Positions 7,720 through 29,641 of a stretch of DNA of 39,478 nucleotides are shown in pieces. The stretch covers positions 1-39,478 of IMG/VR virus record IMGVR_UViG_3300000270_000001; one strand, written 5' to 3'. The stretch is from a virus. The translations under genes were made by a program, and so were the position numbers. The notes beneath the pieces were generated by a model. The model searched no databases. It was not told the origin of the DNA and saw only the letters and a list, made by a program, of their open reading frames with translations. The first letter of the stretch is position 1. Each line of letters begins with the position of its first letter.

Positions 7720-7748
7720 AATTTAAACTAAACTGCCAACCTTTGCAA
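7720..7748 (-). promoter_or_regulatory. Candidate late promoter
   Basis: On the minus strand, TTGCAA (7748-7743) and TAAATT (7725-7720) are separated by 17 bp. Transcription would start near 7712 and reach the terminator at 7666-7626 after roughly 45-85 nt, the geometry of lambda pR'-tR'. Read by eye, not scored. Confidence 0.55.
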
Positions 7749-7781
7749 CACAAAACGTGTAATTAACTACACATTTTGTGT
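7748..7781. promoter_or_regulatory. Two CI/Cro-type operators at the late promoter
   Basis: ACACAAAACGTGT (7748-7760) and ACACATTTTGTGT (7769-7781), 21 bp centre to centre, share ACAC-N5-GTGT with the operators at the cI/cro switch. They sit immediately upstream of and touching the late -35 box, so the lysogenic repressor may also shut the late promoter. Confidence 0.65.
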
Positions 7782-13227: not shown

Positions 13228-13455
13228 TTAGCCCCCAATGACCTGACTTAAATCACAATAATTCCGCGCCATCGGACCATAAATACCGTTGTAATCGACC
13301 AGCCCTTGAGTTTTAGCCACGATATTGATCGCAGAAACCAAGCGCGGCGCTTTTTCTTGCCGATACCAGGAATAAACCGTTCGCGGCTTTTCCTGGAGCA
13401 GCTGCGCGGCGGCATCAATACCGCCCACATTGTCAATCCATGCATAAAGTTCCAC
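13228..13455 (-). CDS. Cro-like regulator (first early gene)
   Basis: 75 residues from GTG at 13455, chosen because AAGGAGA lies 6 nt upstream; upstream codons would overlap the promoter. The sequence contains an HTH (GGIDAAAQLLQEKPRTVYSWYRQEKAPRLVSAINI) of the small Cro/YdaS-like type. It is divergent from cI with the shared operators between them, the standard lambdoid switch. It would compete with CI at ACAC-N5-GTGT sites and commit to lytic growth. Confidence 0.75.
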   Translation of the reverse strand: MELYAWIDNVGGIDAAAQLLQEKPRTVYSWYRQEKAPRLVSAINIVAKTQGLVDYNGIYGPMARNYCDLSQVIGG

Positions 13456-13488
13456 GAACTCTCCTTTCCTGACTACACTAAAAGATAG

Positions 13489-13516
13489 ACTATAACACTT
13501 TATGTGTACATGTAAG
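13489..13516 (-). promoter_or_regulatory. Early (cro) promoter with operator in its spacer
   Basis: On the minus strand CTTACA (13516-13511) and TATAGT (13494-13489) are 16 bp apart. The operator ACACTTTATGTGT (13495-13507) fills most of the spacer. Repressor bound there would block polymerase directly. Confidence 0.65.
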
Positions 13517-13545
13517 CAGTAAAAACCCCGCAAAACAAGAATTTT

Positions 13546-13578
13546 TTGTTGATTGTGACACTTTATGTGTAAAATAAT
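13546..13578 (+). promoter_or_regulatory. cI promoter with operator in its spacer
   Basis: Operator ACACTTTATGTGT at 13558-13570 is identical in all 13 bp to the cro-side site. Candidate boxes are TTGTTG (13546-13551) and TAAAAT (13570-13575), 18-bp spacing; a TTGATT/AATAAT pair shifted by 3 bp is also possible. The cI leader is about 100 nt. Confidence 0.55.
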
Positions 13579-13689: not shown

Positions 13690-14334
13690 GTGGACATCAA
13701 GAACGTTATCGCAAAGCGACTACGCAATTGTCGCGCAGAGCAAGGACTGACAACCGAGGAAGTGGCAAAACGGCTGAACATCCTTCCAAGCCGCTATTCC
13801 AACTGGGAGTTAGCACTCCGAACGCCAAAAGAGCAACAGGTTTTCGACTTGGCCGATCTTTTCAATAAACCGCCAGCCTGGATAGCCGGTTTTTCCGATC
13901 AGGAAAGTCAGCCCGTAGATACACGCAATTTTATTGCGGTAAACCAAGCAACTATCAACGTCAACGACACGACTGTAAAATTGGAAACGACATCAAATAC
14001 AACCGCATTCAATCTCAGTTATATAGAAAAACGGGGACTAAATGAAAATAAACTGACGTCTATTCAAGCTACCGATGACAGCATGACAGGTCTAATAAAC
14101 GAAGGTGATGAATTACTTATCGACCGGACCCGAAATACCGTCAGCAAGGTGGACATGTTCGCTATGTTAGTGAATAGCCAGGTGTGGATCCGTTGGATAC
14201 GACCAGAACTAGACGGCAGTTATACAATAGCGGCGGAAGATACAGCACATTACCCAGATAACAAGTTGACCGCTGACGAAATGAAAAAATTGCAAATCAT
14301 TGGTCGTGTTGCTCGTATATCCAGAGATAGATAA
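13690..14334 (+). CDS. cI: CI-type lysogeny repressor (XRE HTH + S24 fold), catalytic Lys replaced by Arg
   Basis: 214 residues, GTG start with AAGGA upstream. The N-terminal HTH is at about 5-60 (IAKRLRNCRAEQGLTTEEVAKRLNILPSRYSNWE). The C-terminal LexA/S24 fold has Ser131 in DDSMTGLINEGDELLID. At the place of the catalytic Lys (FKK in lambda CI, VKRL in LexA) this protein reads VWIRWI, giving Arg168. No Ala-Gly or Cys-Gly pair is visible in the linker at 70-110. The dimerisation fold is kept, but self-cleavage looks doubtful, so induction may need an antirepressor. It should bind ACAC-N5-GTGT operators. Confidence 0.85.
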   Translation: MDIKNVIAKRLRNCRAEQGLTTEEVAKRLNILPSRYSNWELALRTPKEQQVFDLADLFNKPPAWIAGFSDQESQPVDTRNFIAVNQATINVNDTTVKLETTSNTTAFNLSYIEKRGLNENKLTSIQATDDSMTGLINEGDELLIDRTRNTVSKVDMFAMLVNSQVWIRWIRPELDGSYTIAAEDTAHYPDNKLTADEMKKLQIIGRVARISRDR

Positions 14335-16422: not shown

Positions 16423-17064
16423 ATGGGACAAATTATCAGTGTTATCGGGCAAAAAGGTGGCCCAGGCAAAAGCACCCTAGCCCGTGCAATCGGTACTTGT
16501 TACGCCGCTGCCGAATGGGATGTAAAAATCGCCGATCTCGATATTAATCAATCAACAAGCTTTACCTGGCTACAACGCCGGTTACATAACAACATCACTC
16601 CAGTGGTCGCCGTCGAAGTCTTTGGCACCGCAGGGCAAGCGATGAAACAGGCTGGCAACTATGATCTGTTTATTGTGGACGGAGCGCCCACCGCCAGCCG
16701 TGCAACAAGTGAGGTGAGTAAAGTCGCCGATCTGATTGTTATCCCTACCGGCTTAGCGCTGGATGATCTGGAGCCATCAGTTGGCCTGGCTAACAATTTA
16801 AAAAAAGAAGGCGTAAACCCGAAGCGGATTTGCTTCGTATTTAATCGCGCCAGTGGCTCAAAAGTTGAATACCAAGAGGCCCAGGATTATCTGAGTGATA
16901 CCCCTTACCACCTAATAGATGGTCGCATCGAGGATAAACCTTGCTATCGACAAGCCATGAACGAAGGCAGAAGCATCACCGAATCGCGCTTTAAACAACC
17001 TCGCGAAAAAGCTGATCACGTAGTTCAAAACATTATTAACCGACTTGAAGAATTAACGAATTAA
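16423..17064 (+). CDS. parA: ParA-family partition ATPase
   Basis: 213 residues, the short type Ib ParA without an N-terminal HTH. The deviant Walker A KGGPGKST is at 11-18, the Walker A' region is IADLDINQSTS and the Walker B-like region LFIVDGAP. Type Ib ParAs move plasmid copies over the nucleoid together with a small ribbon-helix-helix centromere-binding protein, which is encoded next door. Its last codons overlap an iteron array. This gene shows that the element segregates as a plasmid in lysogens. Confidence 0.93.
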   Translation: MGQIISVIGQKGGPGKSTLARAIGTCYAAAEWDVKIADLDINQSTSFTWLQRRLHNNITPVVAVEVFGTAGQAMKQAGNYDLFIVDGAPTASRATSEVSKVADLIVIPTGLALDDLEPSVGLANNLKKEGVNPKRICFVFNRASGSKVEYQEAQDYLSDTPYHLIDGRIEDKPCYRQAMNEGRSITESRFKQPREKADHVVQNIINRLEELTN

Positions 17065-19303: not shown

Positions 19304-19532
19304 CTTTTCGCGTGGTAATTTCGCAGAATTCATCCCATAGAACGGCACGACGTAATAAGCATTCAATTGCCAGCGCGGTTTGAAACGTACAAGGCTTAGG
19401 CTTGCTTTTATGTTCTAAATTAATAACATTGCGTTTTGTTGTCCAACCTAACGCGATAGCAAAATCATCTTGATTTAACCCGAGCAGTTCGCGGGCCTGT
19501 TTAACCTGCCCAGGTTCCATTGATTCAACCAT
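19263..19532 (-). CDS. XRE-family regulator whose C-terminus is encoded by an operator repeat
   Basis: 89 residues. HTH at about 7-60 (GQVKQARELLGLNQDDFAIALGWTTKRNVINLEHKSKPKPCTFQTALAIECLL). The last residues, RKGEQSSLRGEQSSL, are a repeat because they are encoded by the two operator copies; the stop TAA is part of the TATAAT box. It is probably the repressor of both GTGAAC-N3-GTTCAC promoters. It overlaps the upstream gene's stop (TAATG). The HTH is clear; the target is inferred. Confidence 0.78.
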   Translation of the reverse strand: MVESMEPGQVKQARELLGLNQDDFAIALGWTTKRNVINLEHKSKPKPCTFQTALAIECLLRRAVLWDEFCEITTRKGEQSSLRGEQSSL

Positions 19533-19795
19533 TATTTATACAACTTATCTAACGCTGTTTTGAAATCGGCGGCCAGTTCTTGAGCTGCCCGATCATCACT
19601 ATGTGCAATAGCGTCAAACGCGCCGGAAGCGTTAAGCATAACAAGGCGGTCGCCAGCTGCTTCTTTTGCCAACTTAACGGGATCGGCATTGTCGGCCAGT
19701 TCAACATTTAATTTTTTAAGGACTGTACGGGCGGCATCGCCTAAACTCTTATGCGCGGTGATCGTTCTATCGGCACTATCAACATTAAAATACAT
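19532..19795 (-). CDS. Hypothetical protein before the XRE regulator
   Basis: 87 residues. Soluble, alanine/aspartate rich (TITAHKSLGDAARTVLKKLNVELADNADPVKLAKEAAGDRLVML, then DRAAQELAADFKTALDKLYK). No motif recognised. The stop overlaps the XRE start, implying coupled translation; an antirepressor or cofactor role is possible, but nothing shows it. Confidence 0.6.
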   Translation of the reverse strand: MYFNVDSADRTITAHKSLGDAARTVLKKLNVELADNADPVKLAKEAAGDRLVMLNASGAFDAIAHSDDRAAQELAADFKTALDKLYK

Positions 19796-19813
19796 AATAA
19801 AAACCTCGGCAAT

Positions 19814-19828
19814 GGGGGCTAAGCCCCC
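19814..19828. other. GC-rich hairpin between accessory genes
   Basis: GGGGGCT-A-AGCCCCC, a short perfect stem between the 19836 gene and the 19795 start. On the minus strand a TTTTT run follows about 10 nt later; may attenuate transcription. Confidence 0.4.
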
Positions 19829-19835
19829 TGGTTAA

Positions 19836-20111
19836 TTAAATTTCTTCGGTGTGGTCTAGGTTGAATACATAAAGCGCTTTAACTACTTTTTTCTTTTCAT
19901 CTTCGCCACTTTTCGTTTTGACCTTTTTTTCACAAACCATAAATATTTTGCAACCTTTAGCACCTTTTTTAACTTTACGACCCTGCTCTTTCCACTGGTG
20001 AAAGCCTGCCCATAAATCAGATGCAAGGTTAAACGCTTCTTTGTGATCTTCTAGGTGTGCTTGATTGTTTACTGAGTAAGTTGCTTTAGTCACTGCGTTA
20101 ATGTTGTTCAT
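19836..20111 (-). CDS. ArdC-N-like small protein (antirestriction/ssDNA-binding type)
   Basis: 91 residues from ATG 20111, chosen because AAAGGTG lies upstream; the 4-codon longer GTG start overlaps that site. The segment AFNLASDLWAGFHQWKEQGRKVKKGAKGCKIFMVCEKK matches the ArdC N-terminal pattern (W...G..VrKGekg..I), known from plasmid antirestriction proteins that bind single-stranded DNA. Here only that domain is present. First gene of the operon driven by promoter copy 2. The family link is by pattern only. Confidence 0.55.
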   Translation of the reverse strand: MNNINAVTKATYSVNNQAHLEDHKEAFNLASDLWAGFHQWKEQGRKVKKGAKGCKIFMVCEKKVKTKSGEDEKKKVVKALYVFNLDHTEEI

Positions 20112-20136
20112 AATGTTTATCACCTTTGATTGGTTC

Positions 20137-20202
20137 GGGCCATTCCCAAACCGTGAAATGATTATAGTGAACTATGTTCACTATGTAAAGAACAAAGTTC
20201 AC
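20137..20202 (-). promoter_or_regulatory. Duplicated operator-promoter, copy 2
   Basis: TTTACA (20189-20184), 17 bp, TATAAT (20166-20161) on the minus strand. Spacer palindrome GTGAAC-TAT-GTTCAC (20167-20181); second site GAAC-AAA-GTTC (20190-20200). The leader has a hairpin (GGTTTGGG/CCCGAACC) that is also kept in copy 1 with changed bases. Confidence 0.82.
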
Positions 20203-20269
20203 TATTTTTAAAATGATTTAATGTCATACAGGAAACTACCAGGGCGAGGTATGTTAAAAAGGAATATCC

Positions 20270-20292
20270 AGCATAGACAAAATATCTATGCT
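20270..20292. repeat. Lox-like palindrome core, copy C
   Basis: AGCATAGA (20270-20277), 7-bp spacer, TCTATGCT (20285-20292). This is the core of copies A and B2. It overlaps the stop codon of the Dam gene, so palindromes lie at both ends of that gene. Confidence 0.65.
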
Positions 20293-20954
20293 TCTATTGC
20301 TTCAACGGCCATTATCGCCGCCAAGATTGCCAACCGTTCAGATTTAGGCAAATTTTTGTAATTTTCACCCCACCGATTAGCCTTTCTTTTAATACGTTGT
20401 CTGTCAGTAAAATCCTTACCCGCATAAGTAGCCCAATACACGCGATCAATCTCATAATTAAACCAGATTTTTTCCGTTCGAGGGCCACCGCGCGTCATAG
20501 CTTGCAGTTCGATACAATTCCAATCAGATAACAGCTCATCATATAAGGCGGACGGATAACCCGAAATGATAACCGCGCAAGGCAAATTTTTTAATAACGT
20601 TAATAATTCAACATGGTCAGCATCATCATATTCGTGTTTATATCGGTTGCGAGAAGTTCGAGTTTCTCCAACATACGGGGGATCAGCATAAACCACCTCA
20701 TCCCCCTTAAATTGATAATTCGTCAAAAACTCATGAGCGCAAACGTTAATCAGCTCGACTGGGTGAGCGCATTCAAAATTAACTAAAGGGTCTGCGTGAA
20801 TATCAATACCAATATTTTTTATTGCAGGGGGCTTTTTTTTCATGATAGCCCCACCACCTAAATGAGTCTCAATATAAGTGTTATGCGGTGGCATCATTGA
20901 AATGATATTTTGAAACAATCCAGAAGCTGCTTTTGATCCTAGATATCCACTCAT
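20286..20954 (-). CDS. dam: DNA adenine methylase, D12 (Dam) class
   Basis: 222 residues from ATG 20954, chosen for AGGGG 5 nt upstream; a start six codons earlier is possible. Motifs: GYLGSKAASGLFQ and THLGGGAIM (AdoMet site), VVYADPPYVG with DPPY at 91-94 (catalytic). It methylates N6 of adenine, classically GATC, though the target cannot be read here. Palindrome copies lie at both ends (20270-20292 overlapping the stop, 20964-21077 before the start), which suggests a cassette. There is no restriction partner. Confidence 0.88.
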   Translation of the reverse strand: MSGYLGSKAASGLFQNIISMMPPHNTYIETHLGGGAIMKKKPPAIKNIGIDIHADPLVNFECAHPVELINVCAHEFLTNYQFKGDEVVYADPPYVGETRTSRNRYKHEYDDADHVELLTLLKNLPCAVIISGYPSALYDELLSDWNCIELQAMTRGGPRTEKIWFNYEIDRVYWATYAGKDFTDRQRIKRKANRWGENYKNLPKSERLAILAAIMAVEAIEA

Positions 20955-21124: not shown

Positions 21125-21364
21125 TCAGTTCAGGGATAATTGCAGCGATTTAGGCCCTATTGAACATAAATATGATAATGCGCATAGCGAGACCAGCGTT
21201 CGCTTGAATTTGCCCACGAACGCCGTAAAACCATCAATAATGTATGCCCGTTCACCGCAATTTTGAAAAGTTAATTTTGCACCGTTTTGGGGAAAGATGA
21301 GTTCAACGCGATCAACTCCCCAAATGGTTAAAAGTAACAAAGTCGCCTTACTTTTTATCTTCAT
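21125..21364 (-). CDS. Doubtful hypothetical protein overlapping kfrA end
   Basis: 79 residues (MKIKSKATLLLLTIWGVDRVELIFPQNGAKLTFQN...). It overlaps the KfrA stop by 17 bp with no ribosome site visible. Hydrophobic N-terminus and Cys/Leu-rich C-terminus (RTLVSLCALSYLCSIGPKSLQLSL). It could be a remnant or a chance frame. No function assigned. Confidence 0.3.
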   Translation of the reverse strand: MKIKSKATLLLLTIWGVDRVELIFPQNGAKLTFQNCGERAYIIDGFTAFVGKFKRTLVSLCALSYLCSIGPKSLQLSLN

Positions 21365-22298
21365 TGAGCAGGTTTAACTGATCTTCTTTACTTTTGCTCT
21401 CAGTTTTTTGCTGTAGGCTTTCATTTAGCGCAATAAGATTACCCTCTAATCTGTCAGCGCGGCTATTAGCTTTACCAAGATCAGCGCTCATCTGCTTAAC
21501 TTCTGCCTGGCTAAGCCCTAACTGCTCACTGGCCATTTCTAATTTAGTGCGTGTTGTCACCAGGGCGCGATCTTGTTCATTATATTGCAGAGTCAACGCT
21601 TCATGACGCTGTTTAGTATCAGCTTCTGATTGCTGACTAGCTTTTAGTTGCACGGCCAGTGAGCTGTTTTGCTCATGGGACACCTTAAGATCACCCGCCA
21701 ATTCATTATTTTGCTTACTCGATGCTGTGAGCTGGTCTTGTAACTGTTCGCCATGCTTATGCTCAACAACCAACTCACTGCGGAGTTCTTGCGCTATTTT
21801 ATCAGCCGCGAGCTTATCTTGTTGTAAATTATCAATGCGGCGCGCTTGCTGATCGGCGCGTTCGGTTAGCGTGGACAGTTCCATGCTTTGCTGTTGGGTT
21901 AATTGTTGTAACTGGGCTAACTCGGCAGTTAACCGCTCAACTTCATCAGCTTGTCGGTCAATTTCCGTAATATAGTTTTCAGTTTCGGCCACGAACTCAC
22001 TGCGATCACGCTCGAAAATAGCTTGCTCTGCTTTAAGTACGGTTTGAGATTCACGGGCTAACTCAGCCCAGACTGGACGCAACACGGATAATAAACGCTC
22101 TTCCGGCATATCTGGTAATGACTCCACAGCTTCAGCTGAACGTTGCTCTCGCCATGCCTTCAAATGCGGCGTGATACTGCTTAAGCTGCCGCGATTGTCG
22201 TTCATTTCGCGCAACTTGAGATTAGTCGGCTCTGTGCCCTGCGCTATTAACTGATCTGCTAAATCAAAAATGAGTTCTTTTGTTATTTTCTCTGCCAT
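21348..22298 (-). CDS. kfrA: KfrA-like plasmid DNA-binding coiled-coil protein
   Basis: 316 residues from ATG 22298 (AAAGGGTG upstream); a longer frame to 22343 would run through the operator. The N-terminal domain at about 1-100 matches KfrA_N (ITKELIFDLADQLIAQGTEPTNLKLREMNDNRGSLSSITPHLKAWREQR, PVWAELAR). The rest is a long coiled coil (AELAQLQQL..., RADQQARRIDNLQQDKLAADKIAQELRSEL). KfrA of IncP plasmids is an autorepressor that supports stable maintenance. The 17-bp inverted repeat at the promoter fits autoregulation. Confidence 0.85.
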   Translation of the reverse strand: MAEKITKELIFDLADQLIAQGTEPTNLKLREMNDNRGSLSSITPHLKAWREQRSAEAVESLPDMPEERLLSVLRPVWAELARESQTVLKAEQAIFERDRSEFVAETENYITEIDRQADEVERLTAELAQLQQLTQQQSMELSTLTERADQQARRIDNLQQDKLAADKIAQELRSELVVEHKHGEQLQDQLTASSKQNNELAGDLKVSHEQNSSLAVQLKASQQSEADTKQRHEALTLQYNEQDRALVTTRTKLEMASEQLGLSQAEVKQMSADLGKANSRADRLEGNLIALNESLQQKTESKSKEDQLNLLNEDKK

Positions 22299-22311
22299 GA
22301 GTATCACCCTT

Positions 22312-22355
22312 TGTAATAATGTAATGTAATCTATGTAATACATTACATTATTACA
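22312..22355. promoter_or_regulatory. KfrA operator: 17-bp perfect inverted repeat
   Basis: TGTAATAATGTAATGTA (22312-22328) and TACATTACATTATTACA (22339-22355) with a 10-bp spacer, 14 bp upstream of kfrA. Built of TGTAAT/ATTACA-type units; likely KfrA autorepression site. Confidence 0.75.
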
Positions 22356-24330: not shown

Positions 24331-24443
24331 TTCTTCTTCCTTTGCTGTTGCAAAGGCTTGCCTATTATCGCGTTCACTAGTACACTTAATCTTGTAACAG
24401 ATTTGTTTTGCGCTTTTGTTGTACTAGCGAACCGAATTTATGA

Positions 24444-24482
24444 AAGCCCTGTCGTTGGTAGCGACAGGGCTTCTCTGTTTTT
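24444..24482 (+). ncRNA. Antisense RNA hairpin/terminator opposite the rep leader (CopA/RNAI-like)
   Basis: AAGCCCTGTCG (24444-24454) and CGACAGGGCTT (24462-24472) form a perfect 11-bp stem with a 7-nt loop TTGGTAG, then TCTCTGTTTTT. The loop has the YUNR U-turn motif (UUGG) used by CopA/RNAI regulators. It lies antisense to the rep mRNA leader, 114 bp upstream of rep. The 5' end of the RNA is not located; no clear promoter chosen. The 24331-24571 gap contains this plus the rep leader. Confidence 0.6.
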
Positions 24483-24568: not shown

Positions 24569-24598
24569 ACTTTACACTTTTTGTGTATGGATCTGCAA
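24569..24598 (-). promoter_or_regulatory. CI-type operator in a candidate rep promoter
   Basis: ACACTTTTTGTGT (24574-24586) matches the cI/cro operators. On the minus strand it lies in the 18-bp spacer between TTGCAG (24598-24593) and TAAAGT (24574-24569). The operator also overlaps the stop of the 24572 gene. Suggests CI control of leftward transcription into rep. Confidence 0.55.
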
Positions 24599-24790
24599 GT
24601 TATTCTCGCATTTTAGCGATTTAACTGCCTGCCTGATCATGTGCAGTGATTGGATCAGCCCGGGATGTATACTCTCATCATTGTCAGTCGCCAGACATAA
24701 CCACTCTACATGATCATGGATCTGATTGATTGTGTCGACTTTATTGCTCTTAATCAAGATGTTTTCATTTCCGTTGCATATATTTGTCAT
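24572..24790 (-). CDS. LexA-controlled small protein, antirepressor candidate
   Basis: 72 residues with AAGGA before ATG 24790. Sequence: Asn/Ile-rich start (MTNICNGNENILIKSNKVDTI), then NQIHDHVEWLCLATDNDESIHPGLIQSLHMIRQAVKSLK; likely two or three helices. It is the only gene behind a perfect SOS box. It directly follows the tail-hub gene D, the position of the LexA-controlled antirepressor Tum in coliphage 186, though no sequence similarity is claimed. With a CI that seems unable to self-cleave, it is the best inducer candidate. Function inferred. Confidence 0.65.
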   Translation of the reverse strand: MTNICNGNENILIKSNKVDTINQIHDHVEWLCLATDNDESIHPGLIQSLHMIRQAVKSLKCENNLQIHTQKV

Positions 24791-24851
24791 AAAATTCCTT
24801 ACTGCTCGTGTTCCGGGGCAACCTAGGCATTCTAACCTAAATGACCCATAA

Positions 24852-24881
24852 CTGTATATTCATACAGTCTATTTTGTTTAA
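24852..24881 (-). promoter_or_regulatory. SOS (LexA) box and promoter
   Basis: CTGTATATTCATACAG (24852-24867) is a perfect CTGT-N8-ACAG LexA box. On the minus strand TTAAAC (24881-24876), 17 bp, TATACA (24858-24853): the LexA box covers the -10 and half the spacer. It drives the 72-residue protein. Confidence 0.85.
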
Positions 24882-24887
24882 TCTAGC

Positions 24888-25859
24888 TCAATCCGGTATC
24901 ACACAACTGGTTGACGTCGACGCCACCGTTCCCGGTTCGATAACATGATCAACGTCCTCAACCAACCATAATCCATTGGCACTTTTTTTATGATTAACCA
25001 GCCTGATCTGCCCTTCTGGCACAATTTCCGGAGACAGTGGCCGCGTAATAGACAAGGTGACTTTCCCGCGTTGCAACGATTTAAGCTTGGCGGAAGCCGC
25101 CGCTTTGGCGGTTTCTTGACTGGTATGCGTCTTGCGAATAGTAAACATGGGCGAGCCACTGCCCGCTTTTTCCGTGTTTTTTTGCTGATTAGTTTCATCA
25201 AACCAATACGCGATCACTGACTGGTAATCATTGCGCTCCTGGATAGTTACCTGCCCCGAACTATTTTCCGGATCGGTTATTTCAATGACTGGAATAGCGC
25301 GGCCACTGACCGTTTTAGATTTACCCTTCGGCACAACCACCAGGCGATTAGCCACCGGCTTAGCGATTGCGCCATGTTCGCGGGCTAATCGGGTTAGCAA
25401 ATTCATGTCTGATTCACCGCGCTGATCGATATGGTCAAAATGAATACGGCCCAGTTCTTCAGCGACAGCCGGTTCATAGTTATGCGCGGCGGCTATTTGC
25501 TGCACCAGGTCAGCCAGCGTGACATCGTCAAACGTTGCATCCCTGGGCGCTTTTATGCTGCCTTTCATTTTCGCGGCTTTAGCGTGAATGGTCAGCGTGT
25601 CATCATCTAACGGTTCTTCCAGCTCATCCACTTCGAACGTGCCTTTAAACACCAGGGCATCGGGCGAGCCAATATATACATCAAGCGTGGCACCGGTGGC
25701 GGGAAACTGGACCGCCTCGTCGCGATTATCCAGTTTGATGGTGACGGTGTCCGATTCTTCCCCCGCCGCATCATGTACCGCCAGCTGAAGCAGACGATCT
25801 CGGATCTGAGCGGTTATATCCTGGTCGTTGGCCAAAACCTTATATTCTGCATTTTTCAA
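24888..25859 (-). CDS. Tail hub / late control protein D (P2 gpD-like)
   Basis: 323 residues. gpD forms the baseplate hub under the tube, related to T4 gp27 and VgrG. Visible features: N-terminal ITAQIRDRLLQLAVHDAAGEESDTVTIKLD, central DVTLADLVQQIAAAHNYEPAVAEELGRIHFDHIDQRGESDMNLLTRLAREHG (the most conserved stretch) and a final beta domain. Last gene of the late operon, with gpX upstream by 15 bp. 'Late control' is a historic name; the role is structural. Confidence 0.92.
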   Translation of the reverse strand: MKNAEYKVLANDQDITAQIRDRLLQLAVHDAAGEESDTVTIKLDNRDEAVQFPATGATLDVYIGSPDALVFKGTFEVDELEEPLDDDTLTIHAKAAKMKGSIKAPRDATFDDVTLADLVQQIAAAHNYEPAVAEELGRIHFDHIDQRGESDMNLLTRLAREHGAIAKPVANRLVVVPKGKSKTVSGRAIPVIEITDPENSSGQVTIQERNDYQSVIAYWFDETNQQKNTEKAGSGSPMFTIRKTHTSQETAKAAASAKLKSLQRGKVTLSITRPLSPEIVPEGQIRLVNHKKSANGLWLVEDVDHVIEPGTVASTSTSCVIPD

Positions 25860-26596: not shown

Positions 26597-29164
26597 TTAA
26601 TCAGAAAGACGGCTACGGTGGCGCTGAGCGTTGGCGCGGTCGCGTTCATCCAGCTGACGGCGCACTTCTTGCGCCAGGGCTGTTGTATCCATCCCCTCTG
26701 CTGCATGAATGGTGATCCCGCTGTAATCATTCGTTACATTACCCGCCGCCGGTGCCGAGGCTGAGGCAGGAATACCGCCGACCGCCAACACCTGGACTCG
26801 CCCAGATGTCACGGCATCACCGCCAGATTCACTATTACTACGCTGCGGGGCTTGCTCTGTGATCTGCTTAACTTGCTGATTCACATCCACCGACGCACCG
26901 TCACCGCCAAACAAGGAGTCCCACAAACCACCGAGCGTATCTTTGACCATGTTGATCGGATCTAATACCGCGCCGGTGATATATTCCAACGCCCCGGAGA
27001 ACATCGATGTAATACCATCCCATAAGCCACTGAAAAATTCCGTCAGCGGTGTCCAGGCTTGCATAATTGCCCCCATAGGAGAAAACGACAGCAACCCCTT
27101 GATGAACTCCCAACCGGACGAAAAGGCCGACGTGATACCGTCCCATAAGCCACTGAAAAAGCCGCTTATTGGCTCCCAGTATTTAATCACCAGGGCAACC
27201 ACAGCGATGAGCGCCATAATGCCCGCGATAACTAAACCGATAGGATTGGCCATCATGGCCGCATTCCAGGCCCATTGCGCAGCAGTTACCACAGCGGTGC
27301 CGCCAGCCTGGGCTTTTTGCACTCCGACCATCAACCACATTGACGCCACGGCGGCCAGCGTTCGGACTCTGGACAATGCCATTACCACATTATTTTTGAT
27401 GTTGCTCAGGGTTAACAGCGCCATCATCTTGCGGCCAAAGATCAGCATGTCGGAATAGGTTGAGAACGCGAAACGCGCGGCAATACTGGCCATTTTAAAG
27501 CCAATCAACGCCGATATCGCAATCGCGATGACATTAGACAGAAACGGGAATTCCTCCATCATATCCGCCAAGCCGTTGGCAAAGTCGCCCACAACACCGG
27601 CAGCAAACACCATTGTCGGCGCAAAGGCTTTACCCACCGACGCGGTCGCGTTCTGAACTCGCTGACCGAGTAACTGAAATGATTCAGCGGGTCCGGTCAG
27701 AATAGCCTGGGCCATCTTGTTCGTGGTATCCATACCGCCTGATAGTGATTCATTCATGCCGGTGATATTACCTTTTAAGGTGTCAATCTCCGGATACAGC
27801 AATTTAATCATGGCCACGGCTTCATCCGTGCCAAACGCGTTCTTTATCTCCTTTTCTTCCAGTGCGTCGATAGTGTCGCCATATTTATTGCGCAGCTCGC
27901 CCAAAATCTCCGGTGTTGATCTGAGTTGATTATTTGCATCAACAAAATTCAAACCTAATTTGTCCGCTGCTTTTGCGGCACTTCCTAAAAATGACTTGTA
28001 TTTAGTCGCCGCTTCACCGCCTGACATGGTGCCCTGTAACTGGCCCAAGATAGACAGCTGCTCTGCGAATGGTACGTTCGCGGATGTTGCTGCTGCGCCA
28101 AGTTTAGAGATCGCGGCGCTCATGTTCGCACCGTCGGTTTTAAACGCCTGTACACTGGACGCAATACCCGCCGAGAAATATTCCCCGAACTTCATATCGC
28201 GCTCAGCGTCTGATAGCTCATCCCAACCTTGAACAACCCCAGCACCAAACTGATTGAACTGCTTGCGATAGATGCCGTAACCGGTGGCAAATAGCCCGGT
28301 CATTTCCCCGGTCGTCGATTTGGTCGCGCCGGCAGTCATTGCCGCAATACGGGTGAACTCACCGACCGCTGCATCAGATAACGAACTAATGCCGGACTTA
28401 ATGTCATAACTTGCCCGGATAAAATCGCTTTGGGTGGTGCCCGCCCACTGATTAGAAAAATCCTTTGCTTGCTGGGTGATAGCAGCGATACCGGTATCAT
28501 CAATACCCAGGGATTGAATTTCGCCCTGGGCACTGGATATTTCACCGTAAGCATCAACTAATTTTTTAATACCAAATACAGCGGCACCCACGCCCACCGC
28601 ATCAGCACCGGCAGACATGCGCATGTCTTTATTACGTTGCGTGATCTCGCCGACTTGTTTCTGACGTTTGGCCACCTCGGCCAGTTTCTGCTGCTGTTGC
28701 TCCAGCTGCTGATTGTAACGTGTGGTTTCAGCGCGGATCTTTCGCGTTGCATCGTTTAAATTTTTCGTTGATACACCGGCGGCATTCATTTTGCCTCGAA
28801 GCTGTTGCAGCTCGACCTGCTCACTTTGCTGCTGTGCTTGTAAGCGGCGCACTTCAGCGGTGGCTTTCTTAAACTCACTGGTCATTTTCCGGGTTGGCGT
28901 GCCGGAGGCTTTCATCTCCTGGGATAGCTGGCCTACGCGGGCTTGGGCTTGCTGGAATGCCGTTTCGGTCTGGCTGGCACCTTGTTTGAGTTTACGGAAA
29001 TGCTCAATATCTTTGCTCATGTTGCCGAGACGGGTCAGCGCCTGCTGGCTTTTTTTCACCTCACCAGCCATGCGGGTGGTTTGGTTTGTGACTTTCTGCA
29101 CCGGCGCGGTGATCTTATCGACCATGCCCATGATTAGATTCAGCCGCATTGATTGATCGGCCAT
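26597..29164 (-). CDS. Tail tape measure protein (P2 gpT-like)
   Basis: 855 residues. The N-terminal 180 residues are coiled coil (QTRMAGEVKKSQQALTRL..., EVRRLQAQQQSEQVELQQLRGKMNAAG). The middle has Gly/Ala-rich TP901-type core (IKSGISSLSDAAVGEFTRIAAMTAGATKSTTGEMTGLF). Hydrophobic segments near 540-570 and 690-720 (ANPIGLVIAGIMALIAVVALVIKYW) are followed by repeated SGLWDGITS motifs (FFSGLWDGIT occurs twice), as is typical. It sets tail length and helps DNA pass the membrane. Intact, unlike TerL and capsid. Confidence 0.95.
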   Translation of the reverse strand: MADQSMRLNLIMGMVDKITAPVQKVTNQTTRMAGEVKKSQQALTRLGNMSKDIEHFRKLKQGASQTETAFQQAQARVGQLSQEMKASGTPTRKMTSEFKKATAEVRRLQAQQQSEQVELQQLRGKMNAAGVSTKNLNDATRKIRAETTRYNQQLEQQQQKLAEVAKRQKQVGEITQRNKDMRMSAGADAVGVGAAVFGIKKLVDAYGEISSAQGEIQSLGIDDTGIAAITQQAKDFSNQWAGTTQSDFIRASYDIKSGISSLSDAAVGEFTRIAAMTAGATKSTTGEMTGLFATGYGIYRKQFNQFGAGVVQGWDELSDAERDMKFGEYFSAGIASSVQAFKTDGANMSAAISKLGAAATSANVPFAEQLSILGQLQGTMSGGEAATKYKSFLGSAAKAADKLGLNFVDANNQLRSTPEILGELRNKYGDTIDALEEKEIKNAFGTDEAVAMIKLLYPEIDTLKGNITGMNESLSGGMDTTNKMAQAILTGPAESFQLLGQRVQNATASVGKAFAPTMVFAAGVVGDFANGLADMMEEFPFLSNVIAIAISALIGFKMASIAARFAFSTYSDMLIFGRKMMALLTLSNIKNNVVMALSRVRTLAAVASMWLMVGVQKAQAGGTAVVTAAQWAWNAAMMANPIGLVIAGIMALIAVVALVIKYWEPISGFFSGLWDGITSAFSSGWEFIKGLLSFSPMGAIMQAWTPLTEFFSGLWDGITSMFSGALEYITGAVLDPINMVKDTLGGLWDSLFGGDGASVDVNQQVKQITEQAPQRSNSESGGDAVTSGRVQVLAVGGIPASASAPAAGNVTNDYSGITIHAAEGMDTTALAQEVRRQLDERDRANAQRHRSRLSD

Positions 29165-29193
29165 AGATTTCTCCTACACAGAGGGCTAAAACC

Positions 29194-29229
29194 AAAAAAA
29201 GCCGGGCGACCCTTTAGGACCACCCGGCT
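29194..29229 (-). terminator. Intrinsic terminator between E/E' and tape measure
   Basis: On the minus strand AGCCGGG (29229-29223) pairs with CCCGGCT (29206-29200), with a paired inner region, followed by seven T. It overlaps the E' stop. Late transcription must read through it. Confidence 0.7.
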
Positions 29230-29641
29230 TATGCTTGTTCTTCTTTCGCCCGTTCGTGGCGCTTAATTGCAATGGAGTGCCAGCGCATTAGTTCTACCAG
29301 CGACATGTTTTCGGTGGTCAGCGCATCCCAGCCATTAAATACTAGGTATAGATCGGCCTCGACTTCCATCACATCGCCAGGAACGGGGGTCACTCCATGA
29401 AAAAAGCGACGACTTCCTGCTGTACAGTGATCAGGTCTTTCGGCGATAACTGATCATATTCGTTTGCAGTTAGGTTGGAAATGCGCGGCACTAGTGTGCG
29501 GTGCGCAGTCACATTCATACGCAACACATCAAAGTTATCTAAATTACGCAACTCACCGGCTTTCGGTTCGCGCAGTTCTACTGTTTTCAATTCTTCATCA
29601 CCACGCTTAAGCGGGCGGCTTAATACAACAGTTTTAGACAT
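29229..29641 (-). CDS. Tail chaperone fusion E+E' made by -1 frameshift
   Basis: About 137 residues when ribosomes slip at T TTT TTC (29405-29399). The E' part then reads in the -1 frame without stops: GVTPVPGDVMEVEADLYLVFNGWDALTT, ending MSLVELMRWHSIAIKRHERAKEEQA before TAA at 29231-29229. The WHSIAIKR-type C-terminus is the P2 E' pattern. Such G/GT-type pairs chaperone the tape measure before tube assembly. The slippery site, frame and position all agree. Confidence 0.8.
29390..29641 (-). CDS. Tail assembly chaperone E (P2 gpE-like)
   Basis: 83 residues. Family pattern: VVLSRPLKRGDEELKTVELREPKAGELRNLDNFDVLRMNVTAHRTLVPRISNLTANEYDQLSPKDLITVQQEVVAFF. It is the non-shifted product of the E/E' pair, upstream of the tape measure gene. 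An array of three TTAACGAA iterons lies 15 bp before its start, which is unusual for a structural gene. Confidence 0.92.
   Translation of the reverse strand: MSKTVVLSRPLKRGDEELKTVELREPKAGELRNLDNFDVLRMNVTAHRTLVPRISNLTANEYDQLSPKDLITVQQEVVAFFME
29399..29405 (-). promoter_or_regulatory. Programmed -1 frameshift site T TTT TTC
   Basis: Heptamer of the X XXY YYZ type in the zero frame (GCT TTT TTC), three codons before the E stop. P2 uses T TTT TTG at the same place. Confidence 0.8.

Follow-up and report, generated by a model that had tools for sequence, protein, structure and literature searches.

How does a dormant phage sense DNA damage when its repressor appears to be unable to cleave itself? 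The stretch of DNA analysed here (39,478 nucleotides, hereafter called the window) is a virus record of IMG/VR with a P2-type tail. As it also encodes a ParA-type ATPase, a KfrA-like protein and a repA-like gene (Table 1), the window, according to its gene content, is a P2-tailed phage-plasmid. The repA-like protein shows 56% identity to the A. veronii protein at the repA position, and its gene stands where PE002A has a gene noted RepA and A. caviae one noted repA. The main survey of the induction of linear phage-plasmids, published in 2023, deliberately excluded phages with a non-cleavable CI (PMC10432266). LexA-controlled antirepressors of non-cleavable repressors are described for the Gifsy prophages, 186 and N15 (PMC3121763; PMC10432266). 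An initial annotation of the window proposed such an antirepressor role for a 72-residue protein encoded next to the baseplate hub gene D.

Table 1. Features of the window referred to in the text (aa, amino acids)
Feature	Position	Strand	Remarks
CI operator-like site ACACAAAACGTGT	7748–7760		Upstream of lysis cassette
CI operator-like site ACACATTTTGTGT	7769–7781		Upstream of lysis cassette
Divergent small gene in Cro position	13228–13533	-	TTG start, ATG at 13445; role suggested by position
CI operator-like site ACACTTTATGTGT	13495–13507		Near cI
CI operator-like site ACACTTTATGTGT	13558–13570		Near cI
CI-like repressor, HTH and S24-like domain	13690–14334	+	Ser131 present; Arg168 at catalytic Lys position
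ParA-type partition ATPase	16423–17064	+	Pfam search
KfrA_N-domain DNA-binding protein	21348–22343	-	Pfam search
RepA-like plasmid replication initiator, 329 aa	23341–24330	-	phrog_20951; directly behind 72-aa gene
Probable antisense RNA to repA leader	24358–24482	+	Promoter TTGCCT-17-TACACT (24358–24386); terminator stem 24444–24472
Possible CI-repressed repA promoter TTGCAG-18-TAAAGT	24569–24598	-	Operator in spacer; read from sequence by consensus resemblance
72-aa small acidic protein, predicted two-helix hairpin, candidate SOS antirepressor	24572–24790	-	ATG start, AAGGAA upstream
CI operator-like palindrome ACACTTTTTGTGT	24574–24586		Inside 3' end of small gene, upstream of repA
Probable promoter TATACA (24858–24853), 18 bp, TAGAAT (24834–24829)	24829–24858	-	Promoter scan, by consensus match
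Perfect LexA (SOS) box CTGTATATTCATACAG	24852–24867		Also conserved upstream of homologues
Baseplate hub gene D	24888–25859	-	Pfam Phage_GPD

The claimed 72-residue protein and the claimed perfect LexA box are both present. The product of the open reading frame is MTNICNGNENILIKSNKVDTINQIHDHVEWLCLATDNDESIHPGLIQSLHMIRQAVKSLKCENNLQIHTQKV. The box is the single perfect CTGT-N8-ACAG in the window, and with 16/20 matches to the E. coli 20-mer consensus it is also the only 20-mer of the window with at least 14 matches. The base composition alone would give about 0.6 perfect boxes per window; therefore, the lone box is weak evidence by itself. Its conservation in the homologues (see below) indicates that it is non-random. 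The initial annotation placed the box over the -10 element of a promoter with a 17-bp spacer. This promoter, TTAAAC-17-TATACA, has only 7 of the 12 consensus bases and is absent from the list of the promoter scan, so this part of the claim was not upheld. The scan gives TATACA-18-TAGAAT, and TAGAAT downstream of the box recurs in A. veronii, G005, G011 and W01. According to these matches, the -35 region is the more likely location of the box, with TAGAAT downstream of the box as the -10 element. The box is presumably occupied by LexA.

The 72-aa gene was regarded as the only immediate gene of this promoter. It does lie behind the box, but the description is incomplete because the repA-like gene comes next. 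A CI operator-like site and a probable antisense RNA are located between the two genes. The antisense RNA candidate has a strong terminator stem (folding z = -3.2) and resembles copA-type copy control. A similar arrangement is seen in relatives, and an Rfam search with the candidate gave no match.

Homologues of the small protein were collected from several sources. Those of the Vibrio phages VPHZ6 and K303 were found by tblastn; the K303 match is weak (E = 3) and was retained on account of its position and LexA box. The PE002A homologue was recognised in a record brought in through DNA similarity. Further members came from plasmid records of V. parahaemolyticus, A. veronii, E. ictaluri, A. 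caviae and P. aeruginosa, and PARCL1pr also carries a family member. A scan of viral contigs with the single 72-aa sequence found no relatives, a scan of genome contigs yielded only Aeromonas rivuli, and the first family alignment was too diverse for a pattern scan. In the first ten loci, including the window, a perfect LexA box is located 17–72 bp upstream of the gene in 10/10 cases. A CI profile was used to find 31 viral loci, and the small-protein profile matches 12 of 30 records from this set. Upstream of these matches, the box is perfect in G001, G014, G015, G021, G023, G026 and G029, has one mismatch in G002, G005 and G018 and two in G011, and is absent in G024.

As an independent test, ten plasmids (the W set) were picked solely for a CI homologue. 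The small gene is present in eight of them, six by profile match and two (W08 and W09) recognised via the box. All eight carriers have the box, seven in perfect form and W01 with one mismatch. W03–W07 combine a profile match with a perfect box, and in W08 and W09 a perfect box lies directly ahead of clear family members that the profile missed. In W10, a perfect box leads to a 63-aa open reading frame at the same place. The W-set records contain 18 perfect boxes in 498 kb, which corresponds to an expectation of ~0.004 per 110-bp upstream region. Altogether, 26 distinct homologues were collected, carried by elements of Vibrio, Aeromonas, Edwardsiella, Pseudomonas, Delftia and Halomonas. In this count of proteins, G001 and A. 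veronii are one entry, as are pVPGX2 and VPHZ6, and W10 is excluded. A perfect box (~17–100 bp from the gene) precedes 20 of the homologues, a box with a single mismatch precedes four and a box with two mismatches precedes one; the remaining homologue has none. Control of the small gene by DNA damage through LexA, in the window and some 25 relatives, is thus well supported at the level of sequence comparison.

Several records deviate from this pattern. The G024 homologue (L062/L084) has no LexA box. A divergent XRE gene lies opposite, and the palindrome AAAAATATCCGTAATGGATATTTTT is located between the two genes, which looks like an exchange of the SOS input for control by a transcription factor. 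The Spartinivicinus plasmid pC has a 63-aa open reading frame (L104 898–1089, + strand) that follows the end of a D-like gene, with a perfect LexA box ~60 bp ahead of it; the position is the same, and the sequence is too diverged to be recognised as a homologue. CI of the same kind is found without the small gene in G006–G010, G013, G030 and W02, so such a CI can exist without it, a point against the small protein as an antirepressor of CI. In G013, a perfect LexA box, CTGTATATATACACAG, is directly followed by an unrelated 83-aa open reading frame (L083 901–1152, - strand). As a general substitute for the small gene it was rejected, being absent from all others of the 15 records searched. A V. 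campbellii plasmid of the same phage-plasmid type encodes a UmuD-like S24 protein (L106 277–681, - strand) near a second perfect LexA box.

The CI of the window had been described as seemingly unable to self-cleave, and the present comparison agrees. The AlphaFold model of CI matches the lambda–186 hybrid repressor, 186 CI, lambda CI and LexA C-domains, which supports a degenerate S24 fold. In seven phages found independently of the Arg motif, the catalytic Lys position is Arg in six, and the segment is deleted in the seventh, VPHZ6. The catalytic Ser is lost in PE002A CI, and the Ser position is Ala or Leu in several members of the wider CI set. The viral contigs of the CI-profile set were found partly with a motif containing the Arg; the conservation of Arg in that set is therefore circular, and the set is uninformative at the Lys site. 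Self-cleavage is therefore improbable. The CI proteins of VPHZ6 (L011 6650–7168) and PE002A (L016 809–1324) are ~171 aa long, with internal deletions in the S24 domain that are different in each.

The word ACAC-N5-GTGT occurs at five sites in the window against 0.37 expected. Two of these lie at cI, two precede the lysis cassette and the fifth is at the 3' end of the small gene. These sites are putative operators of CI. In several small proteins the conserved C-terminal residues DTQKV coincide with the operator-like palindrome. The palindrome type at the small gene tracks that at cI, being ACCAC/GTGGT in K303 and G024 and TTCAC/GTGAA in G018. In PARCL1pr, a word identical at 17/17 positions is present at the small gene and at cI. 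The similarity between the cI and small-gene operators is 8.08/10 for matched pairs and 7.02 (sd 0.25) for permuted pairs, and no permutation reached the observed value; phylogeny is not corrected for in this test, and the agreement is limited to some of the pairs.

In all records examined the small gene adjoins a replication gene, and in none does it adjoin cI, which speaks against a role in the CI switch. The partners compared were the replication protein, the tail and CI. The RepA proteins of VPHZ6 and K303 are 81% identical, whereas their small proteins are only 28% identical. Conversely, the VPHZ6 small protein shares 44–46% identity with its counterparts in the window and A. veronii, whereas the RepA of the latter two has no relationship to VPHZ6 RepA or at most a very distant one. 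The tails of K303 and PARCL1pr are not P2-like (siphovirus tails without D), and the small gene is present there. CI is present throughout the records in which the RepA and tail types change. This exchange of RepA and tails around a persistent CI argues for CI, rather than RepA or the tail, as the functional partner of the small protein.

The small protein itself belongs to no known family, as had been claimed: searches of Pfam, PHROGs and NCBIfam were empty, and the PDB sequence search found no relative. AlphaFold predicts a two-helix hairpin (residues 17–36 and 43–68; mean pLDDT 83.8, pTM 0.66). Foldseek gave no significant structural match with this model, and a two-helix hairpin is not diagnostic. 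Chains of the TraM anti-activator (2q0o) can be superposed with a TM score of 0.67 and rmsd of 1.1, but the E value is ~3 and the match was taken as chance. In literature searches of open-licence papers, an earlier description of the gene was not found. As far as the libraries and these papers show, the protein family is undescribed; the role of a LexA-controlled antirepressor is itself already known.

Among the known systems, 186 Tum is likewise made from a LexA-controlled promoter and counters a repressor that is not self-cleaved, and the structure search with the window CI gave 186 CI among its best matches. Tum differs in being a 146-aa protein with a DinI-like half (PMC3121763). The 72-aa protein, at its length, lacks a DinI-like C-terminal half and has no match to Pfam DinI. 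It shows no BLASTP alignment to Tum, and the profile probability is 0.2%; the remark that it is not visibly Tum-like is thus correct. The statement that 186 keeps tum beside D is not. In the annotated 186 record, B, attP, int and cI come after D (19373–20542), and tum (29082–29522) lies near the other end. In the present group the small gene goes with repA, and homologues also occur in phages without D (K303 and PARCL1pr). The Gifsy proteins GfoA, GfhA and GftA, compared by description only, are also small proteins encoded outside the immunity region under LexA and directed against a non-cleavable repressor; unlike the present elements, these are chromosomal lambdoid prophages with the gene behind a dinI homologue in an operon (PMC3121763). 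N15 AntC, according to PMC10432266 (citing Mardanov and Ravin, 2007), is an antirepressor under SOS control from a phage-plasmid whose repressor is non-proteolytic. In contrast, N15 is a linear plasmid with telomerase, and AntC is encoded in a separate anti-immunity locus. The 72-aa protein has no similarity to N15 gp50 or gp51, the candidates for AntC. The Qtip/TF-smORF modules of VP882-like phages likewise comprise a small CI-inactivating protein encoded near the replication/partition genes of phage-plasmids. Their target is a self-cleaving CI, however, and a partner transcription factor turns them on independently of SOS (PMC10432266). The 72-aa protein and Qtip are not similar in sequence, and no transcription-factor gene adjoins the 72-aa gene in the window, compared with the XRE genes of VPHZ6, PE002A and G024.

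The location of the gene suggests another function, namely control of replication. IncFII plasmids have the arrangement copB-copA-repA. The small gene lies directly upstream of the replication gene with a probable antisense RNA between, in the same order, and it could encode a CopB-like or accessory factor for repA, or be the leader open reading frame of an SOS-induced repA transcript that raises the copy number. We regard this explanation as unlikely. The 19/19 homologues measured are acidic or neutral (pI 4.2–6.8), unlike the DNA-binding CopB; together with the lack of a family match, this led us to reject a CopB-type reading. The family persists where RepA has been swapped for an unrelated protein, and quite different small proteins accompany RepA proteins that are very similar. 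A separate CI operator-like site is located between the small gene and repA, and SOS induction of a copy-number repressor makes little sense. As an additional effect, SOS-induced transcription could still read through into repA.

A host-directed effector induced by SOS, such as an inhibitor of cell division or a modulator of RecA or LexA acting outside the CI switch, seems improbable to a similar degree. Phage SOS operons often hold such genes, for example the DinI homologues by the Gifsy antirepressors (PMC3121763). The 72-aa protein matches neither DinI nor any other family, and a DinI-type reading was rejected on this ground. Moreover, the LexA box of the small gene is the sole good one in most records, so that this explanation would leave the non-cleavable CI without a visible SOS input. 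Still less probable is that the small protein inhibits a phage regulator other than CI. A short XRE-type gene is divergent to the small gene in VPHZ6, PE002A and G024, which would offer such a target, but no XRE gene stands beside it in the window, K303, PARCL1pr or PAC1.3b, and CI is present in all of these.

We therefore favour the explanation that the 72-aa protein is an SOS-induced antirepressor that inactivates CI by direct binding, and consider it quite probable. Inactivation of CI is suggested by elimination and by the precedents of Gifsy, 186 and N15. The earlier proposal of an SOS-made inhibitor of a non-cleavable CI is strengthened by the conserved boxes, by a CI protease that is degenerate in all relatives and by the association with CI through changes of RepA and tail type; its argument from synteny with 186 is incorrect. 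In the dormant phage-plasmid, host LexA would hold the small gene off, and the non-self-cleaving CI would act at the ACAC-N5-GTGT operators to silence the early genes and lysis cassette as well as the phage promoter of repA. Upon DNA damage, LexA would be cleaved and the small two-helix protein made. The protein would bind CI directly and inactivate it, and lytic genes, lysis and replication from repA would be released together. The probable role of the small protein is thus to rouse the dormant phage through inactivation of a repressor that does not cleave itself. On balance, though with less assurance, we also favour a wider proposal: an undescribed family of SOS-induced two-helix antirepressors would be the DNA-damage trigger of widespread phage-plasmids with a non-self-cleaving CI, and its input could be exchanged (from LexA to XRE, as in G024) while the output is kept.

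If this is true, the family is another, unrelated solution to the task done by Tum, AntC and GfoA. A conserved trigger family would also answer how DNA damage is sensed by circular phage-plasmids of aquatic and clinical bacteria. One of these elements, A. caviae pACil-blaVCC-1, bears the name of a carbapenemase gene. Two copies of cI are found in records of about twice the phage size, the 76,588-base contig of L041/L042 and NZ_CP085886.1; these are possibly tandem dimers or assembly duplications.
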